Below are positions 5,591 to 53,185 of a stretch of DNA of 64,000 nt, piece by piece; the stretch's first letter is position 1, and every line of letters starts with the position of its first letter. A model generated the notes under the pieces. It saw only the letters and a list, made by a program, of their open reading frames with translations. It did not search any database and was not told where the DNA came from. This DNA comes from Mesotoga sp. BH458_6_3_2_1 (GTDB lineage Bacteria > Thermotogota > Thermotogae > Petrotogales > Kosmotogaceae). The translations under genes and the position numbers were made by a program. Location of the stretch: the NCBI RefSeq assembly GCF_003664995.1, contig NZ_JFHL01000009.1, positions 62,001 through 126,000 of the forward strand. The letters are read 5' to 3'.

Positions 5591-6907
5591 ATGAAGAAGC
5601 TATTCGGAACAGACGGCATCAGGGGAGTTATTAACGAAGAGCTAACGCCCGAACTTGCCATGAAGCTTGGCAACGCAATTGGAAGATACTACCTGGGAAA
5701 GTACAACAGGTTTATCATAGCAAAGGATACGAGAAACTCCGGTGACCTTCTAGAAAGTGCAATGGCTGCCGGTGCGGCCTCAGCTGGTATGAACGTTGAA
5801 TTTGTCGGAGTAATTCCCACTCCGGCTCTTGCATACATTACCAAGAGCGAAAACACTCTGGGAGCAGTTATTTCAGCCTCTCACAATCCGGCTGTCTACA
5901 ACGGGATCAAGGTGCTGGCTAAAGGGATGAAGATTTCAGACGAAGACGAAGTGGAAATTGAGAACCTGATAATAGACAACCCTTACCATTACACGGTCTT
6001 CTCAGGAGTTGGGAAGATCAGACAAGTAGACCATTACAGAGATGAGTATATTGATTACATAGTGGGTCTCTACGGGACTGAAAAGCTTCCTTCAGAAGGG
6101 ATCGTAGTTGACGGTGCAAACGGGGCAATATCGACCGTGATATCAATGGTATACGAAAGCCTAGGCATTGAGGCCGACCTACGCGGTATCAGACCAAACG
6201 GAATAAACATAAACGACGGCTGTGGTTCGCTTTTTCCGGAATACCTGGGAAATTCTCTCCAGCAAGGGCAAATTGGGGTGCTCTTTGACGGTGATGCCGA
6301 CAGATGTCTCTTTGTTTTACCCGGCTCGAGGTTGATAGATGGAGACATGTTGATGGCTCTAAACTCCATAAAGATGGTTAGTCAGGGAAGACTGAAGGGC
6401 AACAGAGTTGTTGCAACTGTTATGTCGAATCTCGGCTTCGAGAAATACCTGACTTCCAGAAATCTTCTCCTGGACAGGACGAAGGTCGGTGACAAGTACG
6501 TACTTGAGAGAATGCTGCAGACAGGAGGCGTTCTTGGTGGAGAACAGTCAGGCCATATCATTTTCCTTGACAGAAGCTCAACCGGCGACGGACTGATCAC
6601 TTCTCTCGAAACTCTCAATACTCTTGAAGAGCTTGGGGAGACTCTTGAACAATTTGTAGACTCTTTTCCCGTTTATCCTCAGTTGTTGAAGAATGTCCCC
6701 GTCTCAGACAAAAAGGGTGTAATGGAAGACAGAAAGCTCAAAGATAGGCTTGAAGAGCTCAAGAAAAGAGAGGATTTGCGTGTTGTTCTCAGGCCTTCTG
6801 GAACTGAACCCTTCGTAAGAGTAATGGTTGAAGGAATAGAATCATCGCAGGTCGAAACTGTCTGCCAGGAGTTGGTCGAACTGGTCGAGGAGTGCAGTAA
6901 TGGATAG
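5591..6907 (+). CDS. glmM: Phosphoglucosamine mutase GlmM
   Basis: GlmM interconverts glucosamine-6-phosphate and glucosamine-1-phosphate for UDP-GlcNAc and peptidoglycan synthesis. The protein begins [12 protein letters not shown], the family hallmark, which fixes the start at ATG 5591 rather than an upstream ATG at 5552; a GGGGTGA site precedes it. The active-site serine loop is ISASHNP near residue 97, the metal-binding loop DGDAD near 233 and the phosphate-binding loop RPSGTEP near 401. At 438 residues it has the usual length. Its last codons overlap the uvrA start by eight bases, so the two genes are probably co-transcribed. Confidence 0.95.
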
Positions 6908-9737
6908 GTATATATATGTTAAAGGTGCCAGAGTTCACAATCTCAAGAACGTAAGCGTAGCGATTCCGAAGAACTCATTGACAATCATAACGGGTCTTTC
7001 GGGCTCGGGAAAATCCTCCCTTGCTCTCGACACGATCTATGCTGAGGGCCAGAGGAGATACCTTGAATCGCTCTCCACTTATGCCAGACAGTTTCTGGGA
7101 GAGATGAAGAAGCCTGATGTAGAAAACATCGAGGGTCTTTCTCCGGCAATAGCCATAGAGCAGAAGACAGTGAGTCACAATCCGAGATCAACGGTGGGAA
7201 CGGTTACAGAGATTCACGACTACTTCAGAGTTCTTTTCGCAAGAGTGGGCGTCCCTCATTGTCCGACATGCGGTCGCGAGGTTCAGAAGCAGAGTCTGGA
7301 CGAGATCGTCGAAGGAGTTTTAAAGGAGCACGGTGAAGAGGAAAGAATAGCCATCTACGCACCAATTGCCAATGGAAAGAAGGGCGAATTCAAAAAGGAA
7401 CTCGAAGCGCTCAGAAAGAAGGGCTTTGTGAGAGTTGAAATCGATGGAGAGACATACGATCTCGAGGAGGAACTGAAACTTGACAAGAACAAGAGACATT
7501 CAATAAATCTCGTGGTAGATAGATTGAGAGCAGATTCAGACAACTCGTCGAGGCTTGCAGACAGTATAGAGATGGCCCTCCATGAAGGAGATGGTTTTGT
7601 AGAAGTCGGTCTAGTTGATTCTCAAGAGAGAAAGATCTACAGTGAGAACTTCGCCTGCCCTGACTGCGGAATTAGCCTTCCAGAAATATCTCCAAAGATC
7701 TTCTCCTTCAACAATCCCTTTGGCGCCTGTCCCAAGTGCCACGGATTAGGTTACACGATGGAGTTCTCAAAGGATCTCGTTGTCGATGAGAATCTCAGCG
7801 TCGTTAAGGGCGCTGTAAAGACAATGTCCAGCAATAGGGATAGCTTCAATCTAAAGATGATTTTTCGAGTGATCGAGTCTCTCGGGGAAGATCCGGCAAA
7901 GCCTTTCAAAGATCTTCGAGAAGATGTTAAGGATGCACTTCTCTTCGGCACTAATAGAGATATCTCGATGAAGTACCAATCTGACCGACTCACTTACGAA
8001 CTGAAACGTCCGTACGAAGGCATAATCAATAATCTCAACAGGAGATATCAGGAGACGCAGTCCGAAGACATGCGCTACTGGATGGAGAGCAACTTCATGG
8101 TTCAGCAAGGCTGCACGCAGTGCAATGGCCAGAGACTAAGACCTGAGGCTCTTGCAGTAACTCTTGGAGGACTGAACATAGCTCAGATATCTGAACTGAC
8201 GATTCAAGAGATTTACGACTTTATGAGAGAGATACGTTTTAGCGATTATCAGCGTGAGATTGTTGGAGAGCTTCTCAGTGAGATTGAAAAGCGGCTCAAG
8301 TTCTTGGTGGATGTAGGACTGGATTACATCACATTGTCCCGTTACGCGATGACGCTTTCAGGCGGGGAGTCACAAAGAATTAGGCTTGCAACGCAGATTG
8401 GTTCGGGCCTTACCGGAGTGACTTATGTCCTCGACGAGCCGACCATTGGATTGCATTCAAGAGACAATGACAGGCTTATAAAGACTCTAAAAAATCTCAG
8501 AGACCTTGGTAATACGGTTATCGTTGTAGAGCACGATGAAGAAGTAATAAGGAGCTCTGACTACATAGTAGATGTAGGCCCAGGTGCCGGTGTGCATGGA
8601 GGTGAGATAGTCTTCCAAGGGACAACACAGTCACTTCTAGACGCACCGCCGGAACGATCGCTGACTGGAAAGTATCTCAACGGAGAAATGTCGGTTCCGA
8701 GATTCGAAGTGACAAACAACTCCAACGGAAAGTCGTTGATCGTAAAGGGCGCGAGAAAGAACAACCTGAAGAATATTGATGTTTCATTTCCTCTCGGCAA
8801 ATTCATTACCGTTACAGGCGTCTCTGGAAGCGGAAAGAGTTCTCTAGTAATGGACACGGTATATCCGGCATTAAAGACAATGCTTGGCGGTCAGAATTCA
8901 GCTCCAGAAAAGTTGCCCGAGCTTATGGGTTGGGAGGAGATAGACAACGTAATCGTGATCGATCAGAATCCGATTGGTCGAACCCCAAGATCGAACCCCG
9001 CCACTTATACGGGACTGTTTAATCACGTGCGTGACCTCTTTGCGAAGACACAGGAGGCAAGAGCGCGGGGCTACAACAAGGGGCGTTTCTCCTTCAACGT
9101 GAAGGGTGGCAGATGCGAGGCCTGCCAGGGCCACGGTCTCATAAAGATCGAGATGCAGTTTCTCCCAGACGTTTACGTAGAGTGTGATGTCTGCAAAGGC
9201 AAACGCTACAACAAAGAGACACTGGAGATACGATACCGGGGCAAAACCATCTCCGATGTTCTAAACATGACGGTCGAGGAGGCTTCAGACTTCTTTGAAC
9301 GCATTCCAATGCTGAACAGAATACTTGTCCTCCTCAACGATGTAGGTCTCGGTTATATCCGCCTCGGTCAGCCGGCTACGACTCTTTCAGGAGGAGAGGC
9401 CCAAAGAATTAAGCTCGCCTCCGAGTTGAAGAAGACATCCACAGGAAGAACCTTCTACATCCTCGATGAACCAACCACAGGATTGCATTTCGACGACGTT
9501 GCAAAACTCGTGCGTGTCTTGAAACGCCTGGTCGAAATGGGCAACACTGTCGTTGTTGTCGAGCATAATATGGACGTCGTGAAGAACGCCGACCATATAA
9601 TCGATCTCGGACCCGAAGGCGGAGCAAACGGCGGCGAGATAGTTATTTCCGGAACGCCTGAGGAAGTGGCCGAATACCGCCACAGTCATACGGGATACTA
9701 TCTGAAGAAGCAGCTTTCACAGCTTGGAGCGTTTTGA
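6900..9737 (+). CDS. uvrA: Excinuclease ABC subunit A (UvrA)
   Basis: UvrA is the DNA damage-recognition ATPase of nucleotide excision repair. The 945-residue protein has the standard layout: a first P-loop [14 protein letters not shown] near 34, a CPTC zinc-binding pair near 121 with partner cysteines near 255-280, a first ABC signature [12 protein letters not shown] near 486, a second P-loop [10 protein letters not shown] near 643, the C-terminal zinc module CEACQGHG...CDVCKGKRY (about 739-766) and a second signature [12 protein letters not shown] near 831. All elements are intact. The ATG overlaps the end of glmM. Repeat island II follows its stop with no evident terminator. Confidence 0.97.
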
Positions 9738-10480
9738 TCCTGAATTCGGCAGCAGGAGATTAGAAAGCAAGTCTGCTTACGCAGGCCAGTCACCTTCGGT
9801 GGCCAGTCTCGCCTACGACGAGGCCAGTTCCGACTCCGTCGGGCAAACAAAGACCATTAAGAAAAAGCGTAGTGGAGAGGTTCGCTGCGCTCACGAGAGA
9901 AGAGAGAAGAAACCAGTAAGATTGGCGGTGAAACTTACGCCGGTACATGCATTTTTGATCTCTGCTTGACTAACGAAGAACAGATCCTTCCTCTGCTCTG
10001 GAACAAAGAGCAATGTTTTTTCTCTTTGACGGGTGCTCCCTTCTTAGAAAACGGGGGGCCTTTGATGGACAACCTTGTCTTCGCAGCGATCAGCGGGTCT
10101 TCGTTTTTAAGCGTAGAGCGGTTTCTAAGTGCGAGATCCCGTGCAGGTACATCACGGGATGACAAAGTGAGTGGATTCCAGGGGAGGCACTACGGGATGA
10201 CCCTGAATAGGAGCCCCAAACAGAAGCCCTGAACAGGAGCACATCAGGGCAGGCTTTACGTGATGATAGAGTGAGTGGATTGAAGGGCAGTCCCTGCGGA
10301 ATAACAAAGTTAGTCACTTGAGAAAGTCGCTTTGTGATAGAGATATAGGTTCTTTCGGAAAGGCTTCACCGGGATACGTCTTCATCAGCACTGAGAATGG
10401 TTAATGGGTCAATCGCTCTTCTTCGCAACACCCGAGGCCTTTTGCTCGATACTCCTTTTCCTCAGAATTCAGTTTGAGGC
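9738..10480. repeat. Repeat island II (non-coding)
   Basis: More than 700 bases without a convincing gene. It opens with the GCCAGT hairpin array (9773-9843), then has segments shared with island III. GCGATCAGCGGGTCTTCG near 10086 recurs as GCGACCAGCGGGTCCTCG near 19993 and again, diverged, near 20285. The hairpin CCCGTGCAGGTACATCACGGG near 10138-10158 resembles one near 2072 in inverted orientation. CCTGAACAGGAG...TCAGGGCAGG near 10229 recurs near 19763 and 20060. The modules occur in similar order in islands II and III. Short open frames here cross the hairpins and look spurious. Confidence 0.65.
9773..9843 (+). repeat. GCCAGT-spaced hairpin array, copy 1 (four hairpins)
   Basis: Four short hairpins separated by the constant spacer GCCAGT: CTGC-TTAC-GCAG (9773-9784), CACC-TTC-GGTG (9791-9801), CTCGCC-TAC-GACGAG (9808-9822, one mismatch) and TCCGAC-TCC-GTCGGG (9829-9843). 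Loops are three or four bases. Homologous arrays lie at 20328-20374 (minus) and 52002-52071 (plus), with different but still paired stems. Confidence 0.75.
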
Positions 10481-17452: not shown

Positions 17453-19378
17453 TCAAACAAATGATGTAACCCTGTTCTTACCGTTCTTCTTTGACTCATA
17501 CAAAGCTTTGTCGACGCGGCGCAGCAAGGCATCGAAATCACTTTCATCCTTATGGAGAACGGAGACCCCGATGCTGATGCTCAGCTTTCCAAAGTTTTTA
17601 TGCTCCTTCACGCACAGTCCCGCTCTAAGCTTTTCCGCCACTTTGATTGCTCCATCGAAATCTGTATTCGTTACGATAAGTAGAAACTCATCCCCGCCCC
17701 ATCTCCCTAGATAATCGCAATTCCTGATGCTTGACTGAACGTAAGAACACGTAATTTTGAGAGCTTCATCACCGGCAAGGTGACCATAATTATCATTTAT
17801 CATCTTGAGATTGTCAAGATCAAACATAAGTAGTGAAAGCGGGCTTCCATAACGCCTTGATCTCTCCGTTTCGGCTCTCAATAACTCGCTCAGTGAGTAT
17901 CTATTCATTACACCGGTCAGCATGTCCGTAGTCGCTAGTTTCCTGTATTTCTCCTGGCTCTCGCGAAGAGCCTCTTCGATCTGTTTGGTTGGGGAAATAT
18001 CGATGTGGGTTCCAAGAATGCGAGTGGCTCTTCCATTCTTGTCTCTCTCTGCAGCCTCCCCCCTATCATGAACCCAAATCCAATCACCGCTCTTTGAGAG
18101 CATCCTGTATTCTATGTCGAAGTAATCTTTCTCTCCGTTGTAACATCTCTCCATCTCTTCAAGCGAAGGAAGAAGATCTTCTGGATGCACAAACTCTTTC
18201 CAGTTCTGAAAGGTTATGAGTAAATCACCGCCAGGATAGCCCATGATCTGATAATATCTTTCGTTGATCGAAAACTCTCCCTTGTCTATATTGAAGTCCC
18301 AAAGACCAACATTCCCGCCTTTCACGGCAAGCGCAAGCCTTTCCTCGCTCTGGCGCAGTGCATCTTCGACCTTCTTCCTTTCCGTAATCTCGGTCAGCAA
18401 AATGATGTGGCCTCTAATCTTACCTCTGGAGCTGTGGATAATTGTCTTTCTGGCATCGATTATCGCTTTCCCTACCTTCAGCTCAGAATTCGATTGATCA
18501 GAATTGAAGAAACTCAGAACAGTTTCTGAATCGCTGAAAGCGTCACTGAAATTTAGCCCGATCAATTTCGGGCATTCCACTCCAAACATCGAGCAAGCCA
18601 TTGGGTTGATGTCGACAACCGTTCCTCTATCGTCGGTAATAATGACGCCGTCAGGAAGTCTTTCGAAAACAGTCTCCTTAGCAACCGGTCGTATGTCAAA
18701 TAACCTGTACCTCATAACGCCTATCGCCATGAATACTGAAGCCAGAGTGAAGGCAAACGGAGTCATGTCGAGATAGCCAAAATCAACAAATCCAAAAAGG
18801 TAGTTAATATTCACAAGTACGGGAAAAAGAGTCCCAAACAGAATCATTTTCAGCTGACCCCTGTAGGGCCCTTTAGAAAGAACGTATTGATGAGCTATTG
18901 AAAATATACTCGAAAGAAGGAGTATATATGTGTAAAACATTCCCAACCAGAAAAGAGGCCCATGGACAAGTCTCTGCACCGGGAAAGATGAACTGAGATC
19001 CAGTTCGCTGACAGAGTAATAAAGCCAGTGAATTTCGTTTGTCCACATAGACAGAAGTACTGCAAGTGGGATGACGAAAAGAAATAAGATTCTTTTCCAG
19101 CTAAACCACTTTCTCTTGTCTAGAATTGCCATGGAGAAAAGAAAAAAGAGTACCGGCGTGCTTACAATTCCAGGATAAGAAATCTTGTTGAGCAGTCTCA
19201 TTGTCTCCAAATCATGTCCGAGTAGCTCAACTGCATAAAAGAATGCCCACCAGGCAATTGAGAACATCAAAAGGCTGAGAGTAATTGCCTCAAGCTGTTC
19301 TCTTCGGTTCGCAAGGCGTATAGCAATAGCTAAACACACAATCGCTGGGATAAACGTCAATAAAGCATAAATATTCAT
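17453..19378 (-). CDS. Membrane diguanylate cyclase: 7TM-PAS-PAS-GGDEF
   Basis: A 641-residue cyclic-di-GMP synthase candidate. Residues 1-215 hold about seven hydrophobic segments, the layout of the 7TM histidine-kinase N-terminal sensor. Then come two PAS domains (about 235-330 and 350-470; the second ends DITERKKVEDAL-like and DISPTKQIEEAL), and a GGDEF domain with the intact active site RWGGDEFLLI near residue 559. An RxxD inhibitory site (RNCD) lies five residues before GGDEF, so product feedback inhibition is expected. No EAL domain is present. It is transcribed alone, with a terminator downstream. ATG 19378 follows GGAGTG. Confidence 0.93.
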   Translation of the reverse strand: MNIYALLTFIPAIVCLAIAIRLANRREQLEAITLSLLMFSIAWWAFFYAVELLGHDLETMRLLNKISYPGIVSTPVLFFLFSMAILDKRKWFSWKRILFLFVIPLAVLLSMWTNEIHWLYYSVSELDLSSSFPVQRLVHGPLFWLGMFYTYILLLSSIFSIAHQYVLSKGPYRGQLKMILFGTLFPVLVNINYLFGFVDFGYLDMTPFAFTLASVFMAIGVMRYRLFDIRPVAKETVFERLPDGVIITDDRGTVVDINPMACSMFGVECPKLIGLNFSDAFSDSETVLSFFNSDQSNSELKVGKAIIDARKTIIHSSRGKIRGHIILLTEITERKKVEDALRQSEERLALAVKGGNVGLWDFNIDKGEFSINERYYQIMGYPGGDLLITFQNWKEFVHPEDLLPSLEEMERCYNGEKDYFDIEYRMLSKSGDWIWVHDRGEAAERDKNGRATRILGTHIDISPTKQIEEALRESQEKYRKLATTDMLTGVMNRYSLSELLRAETERSRRYGSPLSLLMFDLDNLKMINDNYGHLAGDEALKITCSYVQSSIRNCDYLGRWGGDEFLLIVTNTDFDGAIKVAEKLRAGLCVKEHKNFGKLSISIGVSVLHKDESDFDALLRRVDKALYESKKNGKNRVTSFV

Positions 19379-19821
19379 TTAAGACACTCCATAGTGATCT
19401 CTTCTCACAATTATATACTTTGCCCCTGTTCAAAAGCCATTGATCGTTTCACTGCAGCTTGTGTATAGTCAGTTGCAAGATCTTTAATAAGCCCTTCGCG
19501 CCTCGTCCTAAGAGCCGTTGTTGGTGGTACGTGGTTTGTCAAGAGCAAGGAGCTAGATCCCGTATCAAGTAAAGAATGATGAAATCCAGTTGTCAGAACC
19601 AACTCGGTTCATCATCTGAACTGTCAAATGCCAGAGATTACTTAGAGAGCAAAATGACGGTAGAAGGAGTAGTTGACAGTCACTGGAATGCTCTTGGCCA
19701 TGATCTAGATCCTTGGATCGTTCTAAATACCAGATCCTGTGCAGAAGCCCTTAACAGGATCCCTGAACAGGAGATTTTCAGGGCAGCCTCTACTGGATGA
19801 CATTGTCAGACGATTATGCGA

Positions 19822-20032
19822 TTCTTTTGTAGGGGCGAACGGCTGTTCGCCCGAAAAAGGTCCTGGTAGGAATCTCTGCCTTTTACGCGAAAAATGGGAC
19901 AGACATGAGGAGAATTGTCAGTCCCTATTTTCGCTCTCATCTTCTCGTGAGCGAAGCGAACGTCTCCGACGTGCTCTTTCTCGGTTTTTACAGCGACCAG
20001 CGGGTCCTCGTTCATAAGCGTAGAGCGGATAT
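19822..20032 (+). repeat. Long duplicated segment, copy A
   Basis: Begins with the hairpin GGGCGAAC-GGCT-GTTCGCCC and runs through TTTTACGCGAAAAATGGGAC to CAGCGACCAGCGGGTCC. It is nearly identical to 20118-20320. Copy A has an extra GACA in the middle and a different loop in the first hairpin. Confidence 0.8.
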
Positions 20033-20117
20033 TTCATGCGAGATCCCGTGCAGACCCCCTGAACAGGAGCGCTTCAGGGCAGGCTCTACGCGATGACAAT
20101 TTAAGATGACTGTGCAG

Positions 20118-20320
20118 TTCTCTTGTAGGGGCGAACGGCCGTTCGCCCGAAAAAGGTCCTGGTTGGTATCTCTGCCTTTTACGCGAAAAATGGGACATGA
20201 GGAGAATTGTCAGTCCCTATTTTCGCTCTCATCTTCTCGTGAGCGAAGCGAACGTCTCCGACGTGCTCTTCCTAGGTTTTTACAGCGACCAGCGGGGTTA
20301 CGTTCTTAAGCGTTCAGCGG
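20118..20320 (+). repeat. Long duplicated segment, copy B
   Basis: Second copy of the 200-bp segment at 19822-20032, in direct orientation about 295 bp downstream. The leading hairpin is GGGCGAAC-GGCC-GTTCGCCC. Divergence concentrates at the 3' end. Confidence 0.8.
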
Positions 20321-20327
20321 CTCCTAG

Positions 20328-20374
20328 CCCGCGAAGCGGAACTGGCCACCGAAGGTGACTGGCCTGCGCAGCAG
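20328..20374 (-). repeat. GCCAGT-spaced hairpin array, copy 2 (three hairpins)
   Basis: Read on the minus strand: CTGC-TGC-GCAG, spacer GCCAGT, CACC-TTC-GGTG, spacer GCCAGT, TCCGC-TTC-GCGGG. It lacks the CTCGCC hairpin present in the other two copies, so unit number varies. Confidence 0.75.
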
Positions 20375-20392
20375 CATCACTTCTGTTCTTGA

Positions 20393-20424
20393 TCTCGGAG
20401 GACGGAGAACCGTTGACGGTGGAC
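20393..20424 (+). repeat. Dispersed 32-bp repeat, copy 1
   Basis: Contains CGGAGAACCGTTGACGGTGG; the core ACCGT-TG-ACGGT is a near-palindrome. It is identical to 20571-20602, and recurs with one change, on the other strand, at 51952-51983. Confidence 0.8.
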
Positions 20425-20436
20425 GTGATAAGGCCT

Positions 20437-20542
20437 CCTGCCGAAGGCAGCCTTGCGACCTGGCGTGGTCTTCGCCAGCCTTGCGTCCACTGATGCTCTT
20501 CAGTGCCTTGCGTCCCGGCATGATCTTTGCCGGCATTGCGTC
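20437..20542 (+). repeat. TTGCG hairpin array, copy 1
   Basis: Tandem units of 28 bases. After an opening hairpin CTGCC-GAA-GGCAG, three units have a near-constant spacer GCCTTGCGWCC, a near-constant loop TGNTCTT and a variable paired stem: TGGCG/CGCCA (20461-20477), ACTG/CAGT (20489-20504) and CGGCA/TGCCG (20516-20532). The tail is ATTGCGTC. Confidence 0.75.
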
Positions 20543-20570
20543 TTATGTTCTACAGAAGAATCACTCTTAA

Positions 20571-21059: not shown

Positions 21060-22292
21060 GTGGTCGATATAATTATGATTGGCGCCGGCAATAGAGGGTA
21101 CTTTGCGTACGGGGAGGCACTTAAAACGGTTGAGGAATCCCGAGTCGTCGCAATTGCCGAACCGGATAAACTGAGAAGAGAACGTTTTGCAGAGAGGCAT
21201 GGAATACGTACTGAAGATTCTGTTGCAGATTGGAAAGTCCTTCTTTCGAGGCCTAAATTCGCCGATGGAGTGATAGTTGCCACTCCAGAAACAGTTCATG
21301 TTGAACCCACTATAGAGGCCCTTGCACGTGGTTACTCCGTTCTTTTGGAGAAACCAATTTCTGTGGGGCTTAGCGGCGTAGCGGCTTTGACAGAATCGGG
21401 TGTGGATATCTCCCGGTTATTTGTCGCTCACGTGCTGAGGTATTCTAGCTTTTTCAAACAGCTTAAGTCCCTTCTCGACTCAGATTCTGTCGGAAGGATC
21501 CAGGCAGTTGAGTACACAGAGCAGGTCTCCTTCTATCACTTCGCTCATTCCTACGTAAGGGGAAATTGGAGAGATTCAACACAAACCGGTCCTTCCATCC
21601 TCTCAAAGAGCTGTCATGACATGGACATTCTAACCTGGCTTCTTTCTTCGAGGGCTCTCTCCGTAGCATCCAGAGGCGGACTCAAGTATTTCAAAAGAGA
21701 TAACGCACCAAAAAACTCTACTGAACGTTGCCTGGACTGTCCTCTGAAAGAAAACTGTCCCTATTCTGCTGTGACGCAGTACTTATCAGACAATATTGAC
21801 TGGCCTGTGAATACGATCGGCAACGACATGTCTCTTGAAGGGCGTAGAGAGATTCTGCGTACGAGCAGTTACGGAAGATGTGTTTTCAGAAGCGACAACA
21901 ACGTCGCTGATTATCAAAATGTGCTTATCTCGTTTGATAATGCGGTTGAGGCTTGTTTCTCAATGAATGCGTTCACAACTTCAAAGACTAGGAAGATACG
22001 TATCAGTGGCAGCCATGGAGAGATAACCGGCGATTTTGAAAAGGACAGTTTAGAAGTTGAACTCTTTTCCGGCGACCACAAGGCTTATCTGACAACAAAC
22101 GATGGCTCGAGGCACGGAGGCGGCGATAGAGAAATCGTAAGAGATTTCGTGAGATACTTGCAAGGGAAAACGGGGTCGCTATCCACTACATTTGAAAACT
22201 CTATTCAGAGCCATCTGATGTGCTGGGCCGCGGAAAAATCCAGGCTCACGGGAGGTATGCCCGTCGATCCCTGGAGTCTTGTGGATCTATGA
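21060..22292 (+). CDS. Gfo/Idh/MocA family oxidoreductase
   Basis: A 410-residue NAD(P)-dependent dehydrogenase of the Gfo/Idh/MocA group. It has the Rossmann motif IGAGNRGYFAYGEAL at residues 7-21 and the EKP(I) motif (LLEKPIS, near 97-103) characteristic of the family. Within the C-terminal half a cluster CLDCPLKENC (about 223-232) looks like a metal-binding or structural loop present in some subgroups. The substrate, probably a sugar or cyclitol, cannot be told. The start is GTG 21060, with GGGTGGTAGG upstream. The stop region overlaps the convergent ABC ATPase gene by six bases. Confidence 0.88.
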   Translation: MVDIIMIGAGNRGYFAYGEALKTVEESRVVAIAEPDKLRRERFAERHGIRTEDSVADWKVLLSRPKFADGVIVATPETVHVEPTIEALARGYSVLLEKPISVGLSGVAALTESGVDISRLFVAHVLRYSSFFKQLKSLLDSDSVGRIQAVEYTEQVSFYHFAHSYVRGNWRDSTQTGPSILSKSCHDMDILTWLLSSRALSVASRGGLKYFKRDNAPKNSTERCLDCPLKENCPYSAVTQYLSDNIDWPVNTIGNDMSLEGRREILRTSSYGRCVFRSDNNVADYQNVLISFDNAVEACFSMNAFTTSKTRKIRISGSHGEITGDFEKDSLEVELFSGDHKAYLTTNDGSRHGGGDREIVRDFVRYLQGKTGSLSTTFENSIQSHLMCWAAEKSRLTGGMPVDPWSLVDL

Positions 22293-49025: not shown

Positions 49026-49845
49026 TCTAGATGGCACACTACTGGATAATGAGAAAAAGATATCTAAGGAAAATGAAGATGCAATAAGACTGGCCCTTAG
49101 TATGGGGGTGGCAGTTTCAATATCGACCGGTAGAAGCTATGTTTCTGGCCACGAGTACGTTGAACAGCTGGGAATAGATGTTCCCGTCTCCTACCAGAAC
49201 GGGGCACTAGTCACTTTCGGCCACGGAGAAGAGATTGAGATTATATCGAAATCTCTTCTGGAAGCGAGTCGTGCCAGATTAATCTATACCAGAGCAAAGG
49301 AGAAATCTTTGAACATCCTTGTCTTCTATGACTTCTTCAGACTGCCGGACATTTCCACAGTTGGTCCTTCCGACTCCCCTTACCGAGAATACTATAGACA
49401 CAACAAGTACAGAATGATCTTTGAAGATGATCCCCTGGCACGAATTTCAGATGAAGGTATTCCCGAGATCGCGCTTGAGGGAAAAGAGAGTATTATCAAG
49501 GAGTTTCTCTTTGAGTCAAACTCACATCTTGATAATGTTACCGTTGTCAAGAACGACAGCGTAGAGGAACATGCCTTCTACGAGTTTTTTGGACCGGGTG
49601 TCGGAAAGGAGAACGGACTTGAGCATGTTCTCGACCACCTGAATCTCGACTGGAGTAGCGTTGCCTACATCGGCGACAACTTCAATGACCTGGAGATACT
49701 TAAAAGGGCAGAACTTCCCGTAGTCATGGCAAACGGACCAGACGAGGTCAAGAGGCACGCGACGTTAGTGACCACCCGAGATAATAATAACTGTGGTGTT
49801 TCCGAAGCGATTAACAGTATTCTCAAGATCCGGGGTGAGAAATAG
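49003..49845 (+). CDS. HAD-superfamily hydrolase, Cof subfamily
   Basis: A 280-residue phosphatase of the HAD IIB group. Motif I VIDLDGTLLDNEKKI opens the protein, motif II is SISTGRS, the lysine in FGPGVGKENGLE serves motif III, and motif IV is YIGDNFNDLEIL. Such enzymes dephosphorylate sugar phosphates or flavin nucleotides; the substrate is not evident. GGAGG precedes the ATG, and the stop overlaps the lnt start. Confidence 0.9.
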   Translation: MIRLIVIDLDGTLLDNEKKISKENEDAIRLALSMGVAVSISTGRSYVSGHEYVEQLGIDVPVSYQNGALVTFGHGEEIEIISKSLLEASRARLIYTRAKEKSLNILVFYDFFRLPDISTVGPSDSPYREYYRHNKYRMIFEDDPLARISDEGIPEIALEGKESIIKEFLFESNSHLDNVTVVKNDSVEEHAFYEFFGPGVGKENGLEHVLDHLNLDWSSVAYIGDNFNDLEILKRAELPVVMANGPDEVKRHATLVTTRDNNNCGVSEAINSILKIRGEK

Positions 49846-51344
49846 TGGTCCTGATACTTTTTTCGGCGGTACTTACGGCTCTCGCAATGCCAGGGATGCT
49901 CTGGGGTTACCTGATCTGGGTCTCATTGATTCCATTCTTCATAGCGATGAAGGAAGTGACGCCTCTGAAAGGCGCTCTAAGGGCCTTTGTATGGGGCTTG
50001 GTCTATCTACTTATCACACACTACTGGGAACTACCCGTTCTCACAGTGAACGTTCCCGAGGTCTTGAACTCATTTCCTAATTTCATCGGAATAATCGTTT
50101 ACTTTTTGATGGGCCTGGTAATTGCCATTCCATTCCTGGCGTTTGGTTTTATTTACGGTCTCTACCAAAGATTCTTCGAGAGGTACCCTGTTCTTCTTGG
50201 CCTCTTTGCGGCTTCATTCTTCACAGTAATTGAATACCTGAGGGAGATCGGTCCGCTTGGATTTACGAATGGGAGGTTGTCCGACGCTCTACTAAATAAT
50301 CAGCTTGGAATTTCTCAACTATTCGTTCTGGGAGGACCCCTATTATTGGTCTTCATAATCGTTTTCATCAACCACTACTTATCGCATTTGTATCTGGAGA
50401 AAACGAGAGATAGAGCCGTTCTGATCATAGTATCTGTCTCATTAATTGCTCTTTTTAATTCCATAATGAGCAGTTTCATCCCGATTCCTCATTCCTCCAA
50501 CAAGTATGAGAGCACAATTTATGCTCTTCAAACCAACATTTCCATGCAGATGAAGTATTACCAGCCGCCTGAAGAGACTCTAAGGATTGTATCGAGAGCA
50601 TTGAGAGAAATACCTGAGGGTTCTTTAGTCGTTATGCCTGAGGCGACCTTCATGAGCGACATAAGAAGTAATTCGACTGGAAGCCAATTGCAGGAGATCG
50701 CTAGAGAGAGGGACTTGAAGATACTAGTCGGCTTCCCAACATATAACGATGACAATTTCAATCAGGTAAGATTCGTAGACAGTGAGGGCTTTTCTGAGGA
50801 GTTCTACGCGAAAGTTCAGTTAACTCCGTTTGTTGAATTTCTTCCCTGGCCCAGGGTATTCGGAGTGTTCAGTTTCTTGAAATTTCTTGACTACTTTGAT
50901 CCGGGCAAGCAATATACGATTTTTTCTGTGGACGAACACAGGATCGGTGCTCAAATCTGCTTTGACTCCCTTTACAGCAACGTTGCCAGAAGACTTACTC
51001 AAAACGGAGCAACTGTAATAGTTACATCAACTAACGATGGTTGGTTCAACTTCTCGACTGCCCTCCAACAACATCTTTCAAAAAGCATTGCAAGGGCGAT
51101 TGAAAACCGCCGATATGTGATTCAAGTATCTAACACGGGAATTTCCGCCGTAATCGATCCATATGGGAGAATAGTTAAACGTTTGCCATCATCTAAGGAG
51201 CTCTCAGCAGAATATGTCATTGGGGAATTCGAGTATCTTCCAAGGGTGACTACAACCCCTTACACTAAATTCGGGAACTGGTTTTTCTGGTTCTCTCTCC
51301 TGCTAGGAATAGCTTTGATAATACTTGGAGGTGTTGTTCTTTGA
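49845..51344 (+). CDS. lnt: Apolipoprotein N-acyltransferase Lnt
   Basis: Lnt adds the third acyl chain to lipoproteins at the membrane. 499 residues: about six hydrophobic segments in the first 210 residues, then a nitrilase domain with catalytic Glu in VVMPEATF (about 266), Lys in YAKVQLTPFVEFLPW (about 324) and Cys in GAQICFDSLYS (about 371). The last segment (FWFSLLLGIALIILGGVV) is again membrane-spanning. GTG 49845 follows GGGGTGAG. It is tightly overlapped with genes on both sides. Confidence 0.93.
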   Translation: MVLILFSAVLTALAMPGMLWGYLIWVSLIPFFIAMKEVTPLKGALRAFVWGLVYLLITHYWELPVLTVNVPEVLNSFPNFIGIIVYFLMGLVIAIPFLAFGFIYGLYQRFFERYPVLLGLFAASFFTVIEYLREIGPLGFTNGRLSDALLNNQLGISQLFVLGGPLLLVFIIVFINHYLSHLYLEKTRDRAVLIIVSVSLIALFNSIMSSFIPIPHSSNKYESTIYALQTNISMQMKYYQPPEETLRIVSRALREIPEGSLVVMPEATFMSDIRSNSTGSQLQEIARERDLKILVGFPTYNDDNFNQVRFVDSEGFSEEFYAKVQLTPFVEFLPWPRVFGVFSFLKFLDYFDPGKQYTIFSVDEHRIGAQICFDSLYSNVARRLTQNGATVIVTSTNDGWFNFSTALQQHLSKSIARAIENRRYVIQVSNTGISAVIDPYGRIVKRLPSSKELSAEYVIGEFEYLPRVTTTPYTKFGNWFFWFSLLLGIALIILGGVVL

Positions 51345-51754: not shown

Positions 51755-51870
51755 ACGCGCTGAGAACCGTCATTGGTGGTACGTGGTTGGTGGTTGGCAA
51801 GTGCTTATAAACAAATAAGTGAACAATCACGATCAGAATGATTCGGGAAAACCATCCGGAGACCCAAGGT

Positions 51871-51930
51871 TGGGCAAGAACGGCCCAGGTCGCAATGCCG
51901 GTGAAGAACATGCCGGGACGCAAGGCTGCC
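51871..51930 (-). repeat. TTGCG hairpin array, copy 2
   Basis: On the minus strand: spacer CTTGCGTCC, arm CCGGCA, loop TGTTCTT, imperfect arm CACCGG; then spacer ATTGCGACC, perfect stem TGGGC/GCCCA with loop CGTTCTT. The second stem has no counterpart in the island III copy. Confidence 0.65.
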
Positions 51931-51951
51931 TTCGGCAGGAGGCCTTATCAG

Positions 51952-51983
51952 GTCCACCGTCAACGGTTCCCCGTCCTCCGAGA
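51952..51983 (-). repeat. Dispersed 32-bp repeat, copy 3
   Basis: On the minus strand this is the 20393/20571 element with one visible change (GGGGAACC for GGAGAACC). Confidence 0.8.
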
Positions 51984-52001
51984 TTAAGAGCAGAAGTGAT
52001 G

Positions 52002-52071
52002 CTGCTGCGCAGGCCAGTCAGGCTGCGCCTGGCCAGTCTCGCCTTTGGCGAGGCCAGCTCCGCTTCGCGGG
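52002..52071 (+). repeat. GCCAGT-spaced hairpin array, copy 3 (four hairpins)
   Basis: CTGC-TGC-GCAG (52002-52012), CAGGC-TGC-GCCTG (52019-52031), CTCGCC-TTT-GGCGAG (52038-52052) and TCCGC-TTC-GCGGG (52059-52071), separated by GCCAGT or GCCAGC. Compared with copy 1, the second, third and fourth stems differ, yet all pair perfectly. Confidence 0.75.
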
Positions 52072-52399
52072 GAAAGATCCGCTGAAGGCTGTACGCTGGG
52101 AAGACCAAAATCTGTTGGGCTTCATCCGTTCTTCGAAAAGATCGAGAGAGCGGGTTGACTGGGGCGGGTTATCAGAACCGGGTTATGATGATCGGGTGTG
52201 GTAAGATAAAAGCCCAGGCTCTACGGGACAACAATTCCTGCCTGTCTGCGATTTTCGATTCTATCCTTGTTCTTGCCAACGACTAACAACGGGCTACCAA
52301 GAATCTTTCTACTAGAGCATTTCGGGATAGGCTATCAGTGGATGGTGTTGGCAGGTTGTTCGTCCAATGTGAGTTATTCTAATTGAATCGGCACGTCAA

Positions 52400-53185
52400 T
52401 CAGTCGTATAAGACTTTCTCTCGAAATTCCTTTACCAATTCTGGTGAGTTGTTGGCAACGAGAACATTAGGACTGAATAGGTCGAAAGATTCTTCGACAC
52501 AGCTGCCTACATATCCTCCGGCTTCTTTTACTAGCAGAACACCGCTTGCGACATCCCAGGGTTTGAGAGTCTCTTCCCAAAAAATATCTGCTCGGCCCGA
52601 CGCGACATATGCAAAATCGAGACAGGCACTTCCGGTTATTCGTAGTCCCCTGCATATCTTTATTGCTCTATTTATTCTTCTGGTTATCCGCTCAAAGGCC
52701 GTTTCAGAAGAGTACTGCATACCCACATGACTAGTAGCTTCACGGAGATCTCCAGTCTTGCTTACCCATATCCTTTTGTTGTTCAGGTAAGCGCCCTGGC
52801 CTTTAATTGCGTGAAAGGTCTCTTTTCGGTTGTGGTCATAAGTAACTGCCAACACAACTCGATTCTCCGAATATAAAGCAATCTGCGTAGAATAATGGGG
52901 ATTAGACTTCGAAAAGTTTGTTGTTCCATCAACGGGATCTACTATCCACATGGTTGACGACCTCACGTCCGAACCTGACTCTTCACCCAGATAATCTGCC
53001 TCTGGAAAGAGATCATGAAGAAATACTCGAAGTCTGTCCTCGATCTCGAGATCGACCGAGGTGACAATGTCCTTATATCCTGTTTTCCGTTCCACTGAAA
53101 ACTCTTCCTTTGAAACCTTTCGCCAGAGTTCGGGAAGATACGCCCTTATTTTCCTGCTGAAGGTATTGAGAAGAAGGTTATCCAC
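52400..53185 (-). CDS. Inositol monophosphatase family protein
   Basis: A 261-residue magnesium-dependent phosphatase. The metal site has LGEESG and WIVDPVDGTTNFS (DPxDGT) near 80-95, and the C-terminal WDVASG motif (KPWDVASGVLLVKEAGG) near 205. It may hydrolyse inositol-1-phosphate or fructose-1,6-bisphosphate; thermophile homologues often do both. The GTG start overlaps the pheT stop by eight bases, so it belongs to the fur-pheS-pheT transcript. Confidence 0.9.
   Translation of the reverse strand: MDNLLLNTFSRKIRAYLPELWRKVSKEEFSVERKTGYKDIVTSVDLEIEDRLRVFLHDLFPEADYLGEESGSDVRSSTMWIVDPVDGTTNFSKSNPHYSTQIALYSENRVVLAVTYDHNRKETFHAIKGQGAYLNNKRIWVSKTGDLREATSHVGMQYSSETAFERITRRINRAIKICRGLRITGSACLDFAYVASGRADIFWEETLKPWDVASGVLLVKEAGGYVGSCVEESFDLFSPNVLVANNSPELVKEFREKVLYD

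Follow-up and report, generated by a model that had tools for sequence, protein, structure and literature searches.

Short palindromic repeats fill many bacterial genomes, which raises the questions of why they persist and how their units diversify. Among transcripts, RNAs of the CsrB/RsmZ type are multi-hairpin chains in which a fixed loop motif (the GGA rule) is carried on interchangeable stems. Among DNA repeats, REP elements are found chiefly in gaps whose flanking genes are unidirectional or convergent, and published REP families combine units with different stems; in most families unlike pairs are favoured, for which there is "no obvious explanation" (PMC3733652). A REP family named CGTC-3 is reported for both M. 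prima and Kosmotoga olearia (PMC3733652). BOX elements are over-represented between convergent genes (PMC3049150). For Mesotoga, PMC12306157 gives a count of generic palindromes, and we found no description in open papers on Mesotoga repeats of arrays such as those reported here.

The window, a stretch of 64,000 nucleotides from Mesotoga sp. BH458_6_3_2_1, contains three arrays of short hairpins joined by the spacer GCCAGT. An earlier note on this DNA had matched them to no known repeat family. Its interpretation is partly supported. REP/BIME and BOX elements come closest among known kinds, and the note's claim that REP stems stay constant was too strong. The array unit consists of a constant tag or spacer, a short palindromic variable stem and a tightly constrained loop. 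We read the arrays as intergenic multi-hairpin DNA repeats that run head-to-tail in one direction and form a family specific to this lineage, a reading to which we give about even weight.

Three arrays in the window and their relatives

The GCCAGT arrays, here called F1, are chains of the layout hairpin-GCCAGT-hairpin-GCCAGT, usually with 3 to 5 hairpins. Two sibling families of the same build, F2 (spacer G[AT]CGCAA[GT]G) and F3 (spacer GAAGTGA[TG]G), occur in the same islands. The features in the window are as follows.

9773-9843, plus strand: GCCAGT array 1, four hairpins
9785-9790, 9802-9807 and 9823-9828, plus strand: spacers of array 1
20328-20374, minus strand: GCCAGT array 2, three hairpins
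20341-20346 and 20358-20363, minus strand: spacers of array 2
20375-20383, minus strand: F3-type spacer GAAGTGATG, immediately preceding the first hairpin of array 2
20450-20545, minus strand: F2-type array sharing both island and strand with array 2
51870-51944, plus strand: F2-type array (hairpins TGGGC.., CCGG.., CTGCC..) sharing both island and strand with array 3
51993-52001, plus strand: F3-type spacer GAAGTGATG, immediately preceding the first hairpin of array 3
52002-52073, plus strand: GCCAGT array 3, four hairpins
52013-52018, 52032-52037 and (variant GCCAGC) 52053-52058, plus strand: spacers of array 3

When we re-read the sequence, the places, stems and unit numbers of the three GCCAGT arrays were all as the earlier note had given them. 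Array 1, which has a uvrA-like ORF (6900-9737) upstream, consists of CTGC-TTAC-GCAG, CACC-TTC-GGTG, CTCGCC-TAC-GACGAG and TCCGAC-TCC-GTCGGG. Array 2 (CTGC-TGC-GCAG, CACC-TTC-GGTG and TCCGC-TTC-GCGGG) lies in a gap flanked by divergent ORFs, 17453-19378 (minus) and 21060-22292 (plus), and array 3 (CTGC-TGC-GCAG, CAGGC-TGC-GCCTG, CTCGCC-TTT-GGCGAG and TCCGC-TTC-GCGGG) has convergent ORFs, 49845-51344 (plus) and 52400-53185 (minus), on either side. In arrays 2 and 3 the first hairpin lies between a GAAGTGATG spacer and GCCAGT, so that combinations of hairpin and spacer are not confined to one family. The F2-type array at 20450-20545 has the hairpins CCGGC..GCCGG, CACTGA..TCAGTG, CTGGCG..CGCCAG and CTGCC..GGCAG.

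Islands 2 (20375-20545) and 3 (51870-52001) have a composite frame in common (F2 array, CTGCCTTCGGCAGGAGGCCTTATCA, CCACCGTCAACGGTTC.CCGTCCTCCGAGAT, F3 spacer, F1 array), which looks like a longer repeat unit. At 19761-20320, the array 2 island also holds a 292-bp unit in almost two tandem copies (88% match) that contains CCCTGAACAGGA, a TTCGCT.CGCTCACGAG motif and Y1/REP-like GGGACA..AGTCCC pieces. The palindromic repeat GGGGCGAACGGCCGTTCGCCC at 20128-20148 has a near copy in the island of a relative (L310), and a repeat type GATCCCG..CGGGATGAC, at 10135-10160 and 2071-2096, is possibly the CGTC-3 REP type known from M. prima.

The bare hexamer GCCAGT is not enriched in the window (27 vs 18.7 ± 4.2). 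Searching for three spacers at hairpin distance, we found 74 F1 matches (46 + 28) in the bacterium's own 3.23-Mb genome and 1 match (0 + 1) with a reversed-pattern control; the corresponding triple matches numbered 47 for F2 and 75 for F3, with controls of zero. Further copies therefore exist, and they recur across the genus. F1 is frequent in 7 of its 10 genomes, namely G000 (its own), G001 (a complete genome, 41 matches), G002 (22 matches) and G004 to G007, and marginal in the partial genome G009 (2 matches). The same pattern search found it absent from G003 and essentially absent from G008 (0 to 1 match, chance-like). It is also present in one sister genus, g2 (G010 and G014), and is at control level elsewhere among the 103 genomes of the phylum. 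F2 and F3 gave no triple-spacer match in G003, G007, G008 or G010. A wide distribution was rejected: the matches listed were single and scattered except in Kosmotogaceae Zod_maxbin.0257_1, and the controlled phylum search settled the matter. Carriage by phages or plasmids was also rejected, a scan of viral contigs having returned 7 scattered single matches that we judged to be chance.

Beyond the window, our sequence basis consisted of the stretches surrounding arrays and of spaced samples. Short hairpin chains occur by the hundred in intergenic gaps of this bacterium and of its relatives. ORFs of at least 150 aa contain 26 of 239 arrays, and a 100-aa cutoff puts many modules inside ORFs; the long ORFs called over a minority of arrays in islands are probably spurious. 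In equal samples from two genomes of nearly equal size, the bases outside ORFs of at least 150 aa made up 29% in array-bearing G001 (L325-L344) and 18% in array-free G008 (L345-L364), and the arrays may add a good deal of noncoding DNA.

Covarying stems, constrained loops and unlike neighbours

The earlier note held that pairing persists while stem sequence changes and proposed a covariation test, which bore it out. In 35 distinct 5-bp modules, the covariation score was 0.819, compared with 0.255 ± 0.034 after shuffling (0/500); 92.6% of cells were paired (59.9% shuffled), and 61 were double changed (23.5 shuffled). Sliding the partner by 1 to 3 bases, a control that corrects for relatedness among modules as shuffling does not, gave a score of at most 0.11. 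Furthermore, 34 of the 140 two-base differences in F1 were compensatory double differences, where chance would place about 1 in 9 on a pair; an example is CCGGCGAAGAACATGCCGG and CTGGCGAAGAACATGCCAG, which have the loop in common.

True compensatory pairs of the kind the note described are therefore present, but most of the difference between arrays is the exchange, gain or loss of whole modules (CACC, CAGGC, CGCAC, CTCGCC, CTTTGC and CTCTGCC among them) and not the gradual drift of one stem. Several orthologous arrays of G000 and G001 are identical over 70 bp, one has lost modules and one differs in its left part. At one site, six species have different module sets or island sequence behind one and the same gene; G000 and G002 apparently differ there by the insertion or deletion of two hairpins at spacers, and G003, G007 and G008 have no island, the genes nearly abutting. 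Neither random, unpaired stem substitutions nor a lack of further copies, the two outcomes that the note had named as contrary to its view, was found. The constancy of joints and loops, together with stems that change on both sides together, suggests that the folded shape, rather than its letters, is selected or maintained.

Loops of the form T-N-C or T-N-N-C were found in 282 of 311 F1 hairpins, 268 of them with a C-G closing pair, and inverted G..A loops in none of the 311; in ordinary intergenic hairpins of the same genus, T..C or G..A loops occur in about 15%. The middle loop base of F1 hairpins is free; in most module classes it varies strongly, near saturation, beside stem columns that hardly change. 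The complementary-strand forms of these loops are c(GNA)g and c(GNNA)g, exceptionally stable as DNA loops, and most of the four-base loops are not of the RNA-type GNRA form. The short loops of F2 and F3 mostly obey the F1 rule, and their 6- to 7-nt loops are RRANCR, outside the GNA rule. Folding energies were nearly equal for the two strands under a model that has no special GNA-loop term and is hence uninformative on strand, so that the argument for a DNA loop rests on the motif and on the literature.

The F1 stems fall into about 15 discrete types (CTGC, CACC, CGCC, CAGGC, CGCAC, CACAC/CACGC, CTCGCC, CTTTGC, CTCTGCC, CTCAGC, GAAGGC, ACCAC, ATCGC, ACGAC and, at the ends, TCCGC/TCCGAC/TCCGGC), the order of which varies from array to array and from species to species. 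Similar stems were adjacent 4 times in F1 (20.0 ± 4.2 expected), 0 times in F3 (16.1 ± 3.4 expected) and 13 times in F2 (21.3 expected), and among the classified modules of the chains there were no like neighbours. Simple tandem duplication would not be expected to yield this pattern; the difference between neighbours could be partly inherited from a few mixed ancestral four-hairpin arrays.

All arrays are head-to-tail, and in 59 of 61 islands every array, of any family, lies on one strand; among multi-family islands this is so in 21 of 22 (p about 1e-5). In G001, where dnaA is at 47-1402 and the terminus is assumed to lie opposite, 28 of 41 array clusters are directed away from the origin (p = 0.03), most clearly between 2.16 and 2.86 Mb, where all are on one strand. 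Because the terminus was assumed and the GC skew of G001 was too noisy to place it, the link between array polarity and replication in this genome is only suggestive.

Hairpins in DNA, in RNA or under a transposase

Fixed loops and spacers with covarying stems are what protein-binding arrays in RNA look like, and published REPs are thought partly to act as RNA (PMC3733652). The strong covariation would therefore suit a transcribed multi-hairpin RNA, such as a UTR stabiliser, an attenuator or a CsrB-like protein sponge whose loops are constant and whose stems can be swapped. However, a selected RNA hairpin should tolerate G-U above A-C on the transcribed strand, and we found no such excess on either strand: the mismatch counts, which are small, were 14 G-T and 14 A-C in distinct modules and 14 and 19 over the three families (p = 0.49). 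Nor was there an orientation preference toward the upstream gene (same 96, opposite 81, p = 0.29) or the downstream gene (same 74, opposite 80), and islands were equally common in divergent gaps (21/52) and convergent gaps (17/43). No known Rfam RNA reached the gathering score over the arrays, the search of the window giving only tmRNA and tRNAs, and no T-run follows the hairpins of the three window arrays. Since mismatches are balanced and gene direction is a matter of indifference, nothing speaks in favour of an RNA role, which we consider unlikely. An intrinsic terminator or 3' UTR stabiliser was rejected on the lack of a T-run in the three arrays and of a fixed orientation to the upstream gene. 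Probably, the arrays are selfish or tolerated repeats and not gene-control elements.

The earlier note offered two explanations of the kept pairing, that the hairpin itself matters or that it mutates by templating. In the latter, a mutational artefact, one arm would template repair of the other at replication, with no selection or recognition; the balanced G-T and A-C mismatches and the mostly perfect stems (66/84, 63/80 and 64/78 distinct modules) are consistent with it. Within a class, however, variation at the middle loop base is near saturation whereas the stems barely vary, and this speaks against unconstrained drift by templating. Nor does templating predict the T..C loop ends, the spacers, the island polarity or the difference between neighbours. 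Free templated drift is an unlikely source of the pairing.

The note also suggested looking for a Y1/RAYT transposase, with a divided outcome. The bacterium's own genome contains two Y1 genes, and a GCCAGT array lies about 0.1 kb from one of them, but Y1_Tnp (PF01797) had no match in array-rich G001 or G002. TnpA-REP enzymes recognise the loop and the foot of a hairpin and accept changes in its stem (PMC8266576), which resembles the pattern here and would suit REP/BIME-type elements mobilised, now or formerly, by a Y1 (RAYT/TnpA-REP-like) single-strand transposase. Such mobilisation is nevertheless unlikely: G008 has two Y1_Tnp genes yet only one chance-like F1 match, the units are head-to-tail, an arrangement that REPs avoid (PMC3733652), and the GTAG tag is absent. 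Because G001 and G002 are array-rich without Y1 and G008 is the reverse, a resident Y1 enzyme is not required, and we rejected a resident RAYT as a necessary driver; a Y1 enzyme may have been involved in the past. A search for empty sites returned only self-matches with the array as the gap, tandem duplications and mosaic flanks, with no clean empty site and no target duplication.

One Y1_Tnp ORF (L031 1039-1902, G000:C7) lies between the inverted pieces GGGTACAGAC..GTCAGTCCCCATTTT. The same half-motif often sits before GCCAGT arrays; its form in some relatives is CCAGTCAGTCCC, which overlaps the CCAGTCAG of array starts and is a possible origin of the GCCAGT spacer.

A conserved foot and loop with free stems would be the expected substrate pattern of a putative enzyme reading loop and foot on a single strand (PMC8266576). 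One doubtful and rather improbable version is a DNA hairpin code, in which a putative non-RAYT enzyme would read loop and spacer on single-stranded DNA and copy or exchange hairpins from island to island in one polarity, mutually non-pairing stems being actively kept so that each hairpin folds alone.

Under our preferred reading, that of lineage-specific DNA repeats, the maintained or functional form would be a DNA hairpin, as a cruciform or on a single strand, recognised or stabilised via loop and foot and not via the letters of the stem. The main source of change in arrays would be recombination at the spacers and flanks that dispersed islands have in common, by which whole hairpins could be exchanged or removed. 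Identical neighbours may be lost by slippage or deletion, or may be disfavoured since their arms would cross-pair, and either course would let different self-complementary stems accumulate.

Comparison with known repeat systems

Like REP/BIME elements (PMC3733652), the arrays are short, intergenic, high-copy palindromes with an unpaired tag beside the stem, and they show stem and loop variants in one genome and mosaic clusters. Unlike REPs, of which HT dimers are absent or negligible (PMC3733652), they are strictly head-to-tail, with one strand per island and no HH/TT pairing, and F1 (GCCAGT) and F3 (GAAGTGATG) have no GTAG/CGTC tag. The GACGC of F2 is GCGTC on the other strand, yet it alternates with GTCGC, and F2 stems begin with C/G, whereas those of CGTC REPs begin with A-T pairs. 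Divergent gaps are not avoided, and there is no dependence on a resident RAYT: the Y1 gene of a RAYT-mobilised REP is found in G000 and not in array-rich G001 and G002. Since neither the tag nor HH/TT pairing was found, we have not filed the arrays as a REP family.

Like BOX of Streptococcus (PMC3049150), the arrays are modular and folded, the number of their internal modules varies, and they have no known transposase. BOX, however, has fixed boxA/boxB/boxC sequences with repeated boxB units, whereas here neighbours mostly differ and end modules are not fixed. A BOX element was rejected as a candidate because fixed ends around identical internal modules were not found: CTGC opens only 53 of 126 chains, and there are no like neighbours. 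With CsrB/RsmZ the arrays share a constant loop motif on interchangeable, chained stems, but their loops do not follow the GGA rule, the copies are dispersed by the dozen and G-U is not tolerated. If loop and foot were recognised and stem sequence tolerated, as for IS200/IS605 and TnpA-REP substrates (PMC8266576), the array pattern would result, but some array-rich genomes have no Y1; neither cleavage sites nor left and right ends were identified in the arrays.

With three spacer families in parallel, hundreds of hairpins, a strict rule for loops, another for unlike neighbours, and sister species that either have or lack arrays, the system lets DNA and RNA explanations be separated by counting and by simple experiments. 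On these comparisons, we class the arrays with the palindromic repeat systems of bacteria as a new variant, REP/BOX-like but head-to-tail and multi-hairpin.
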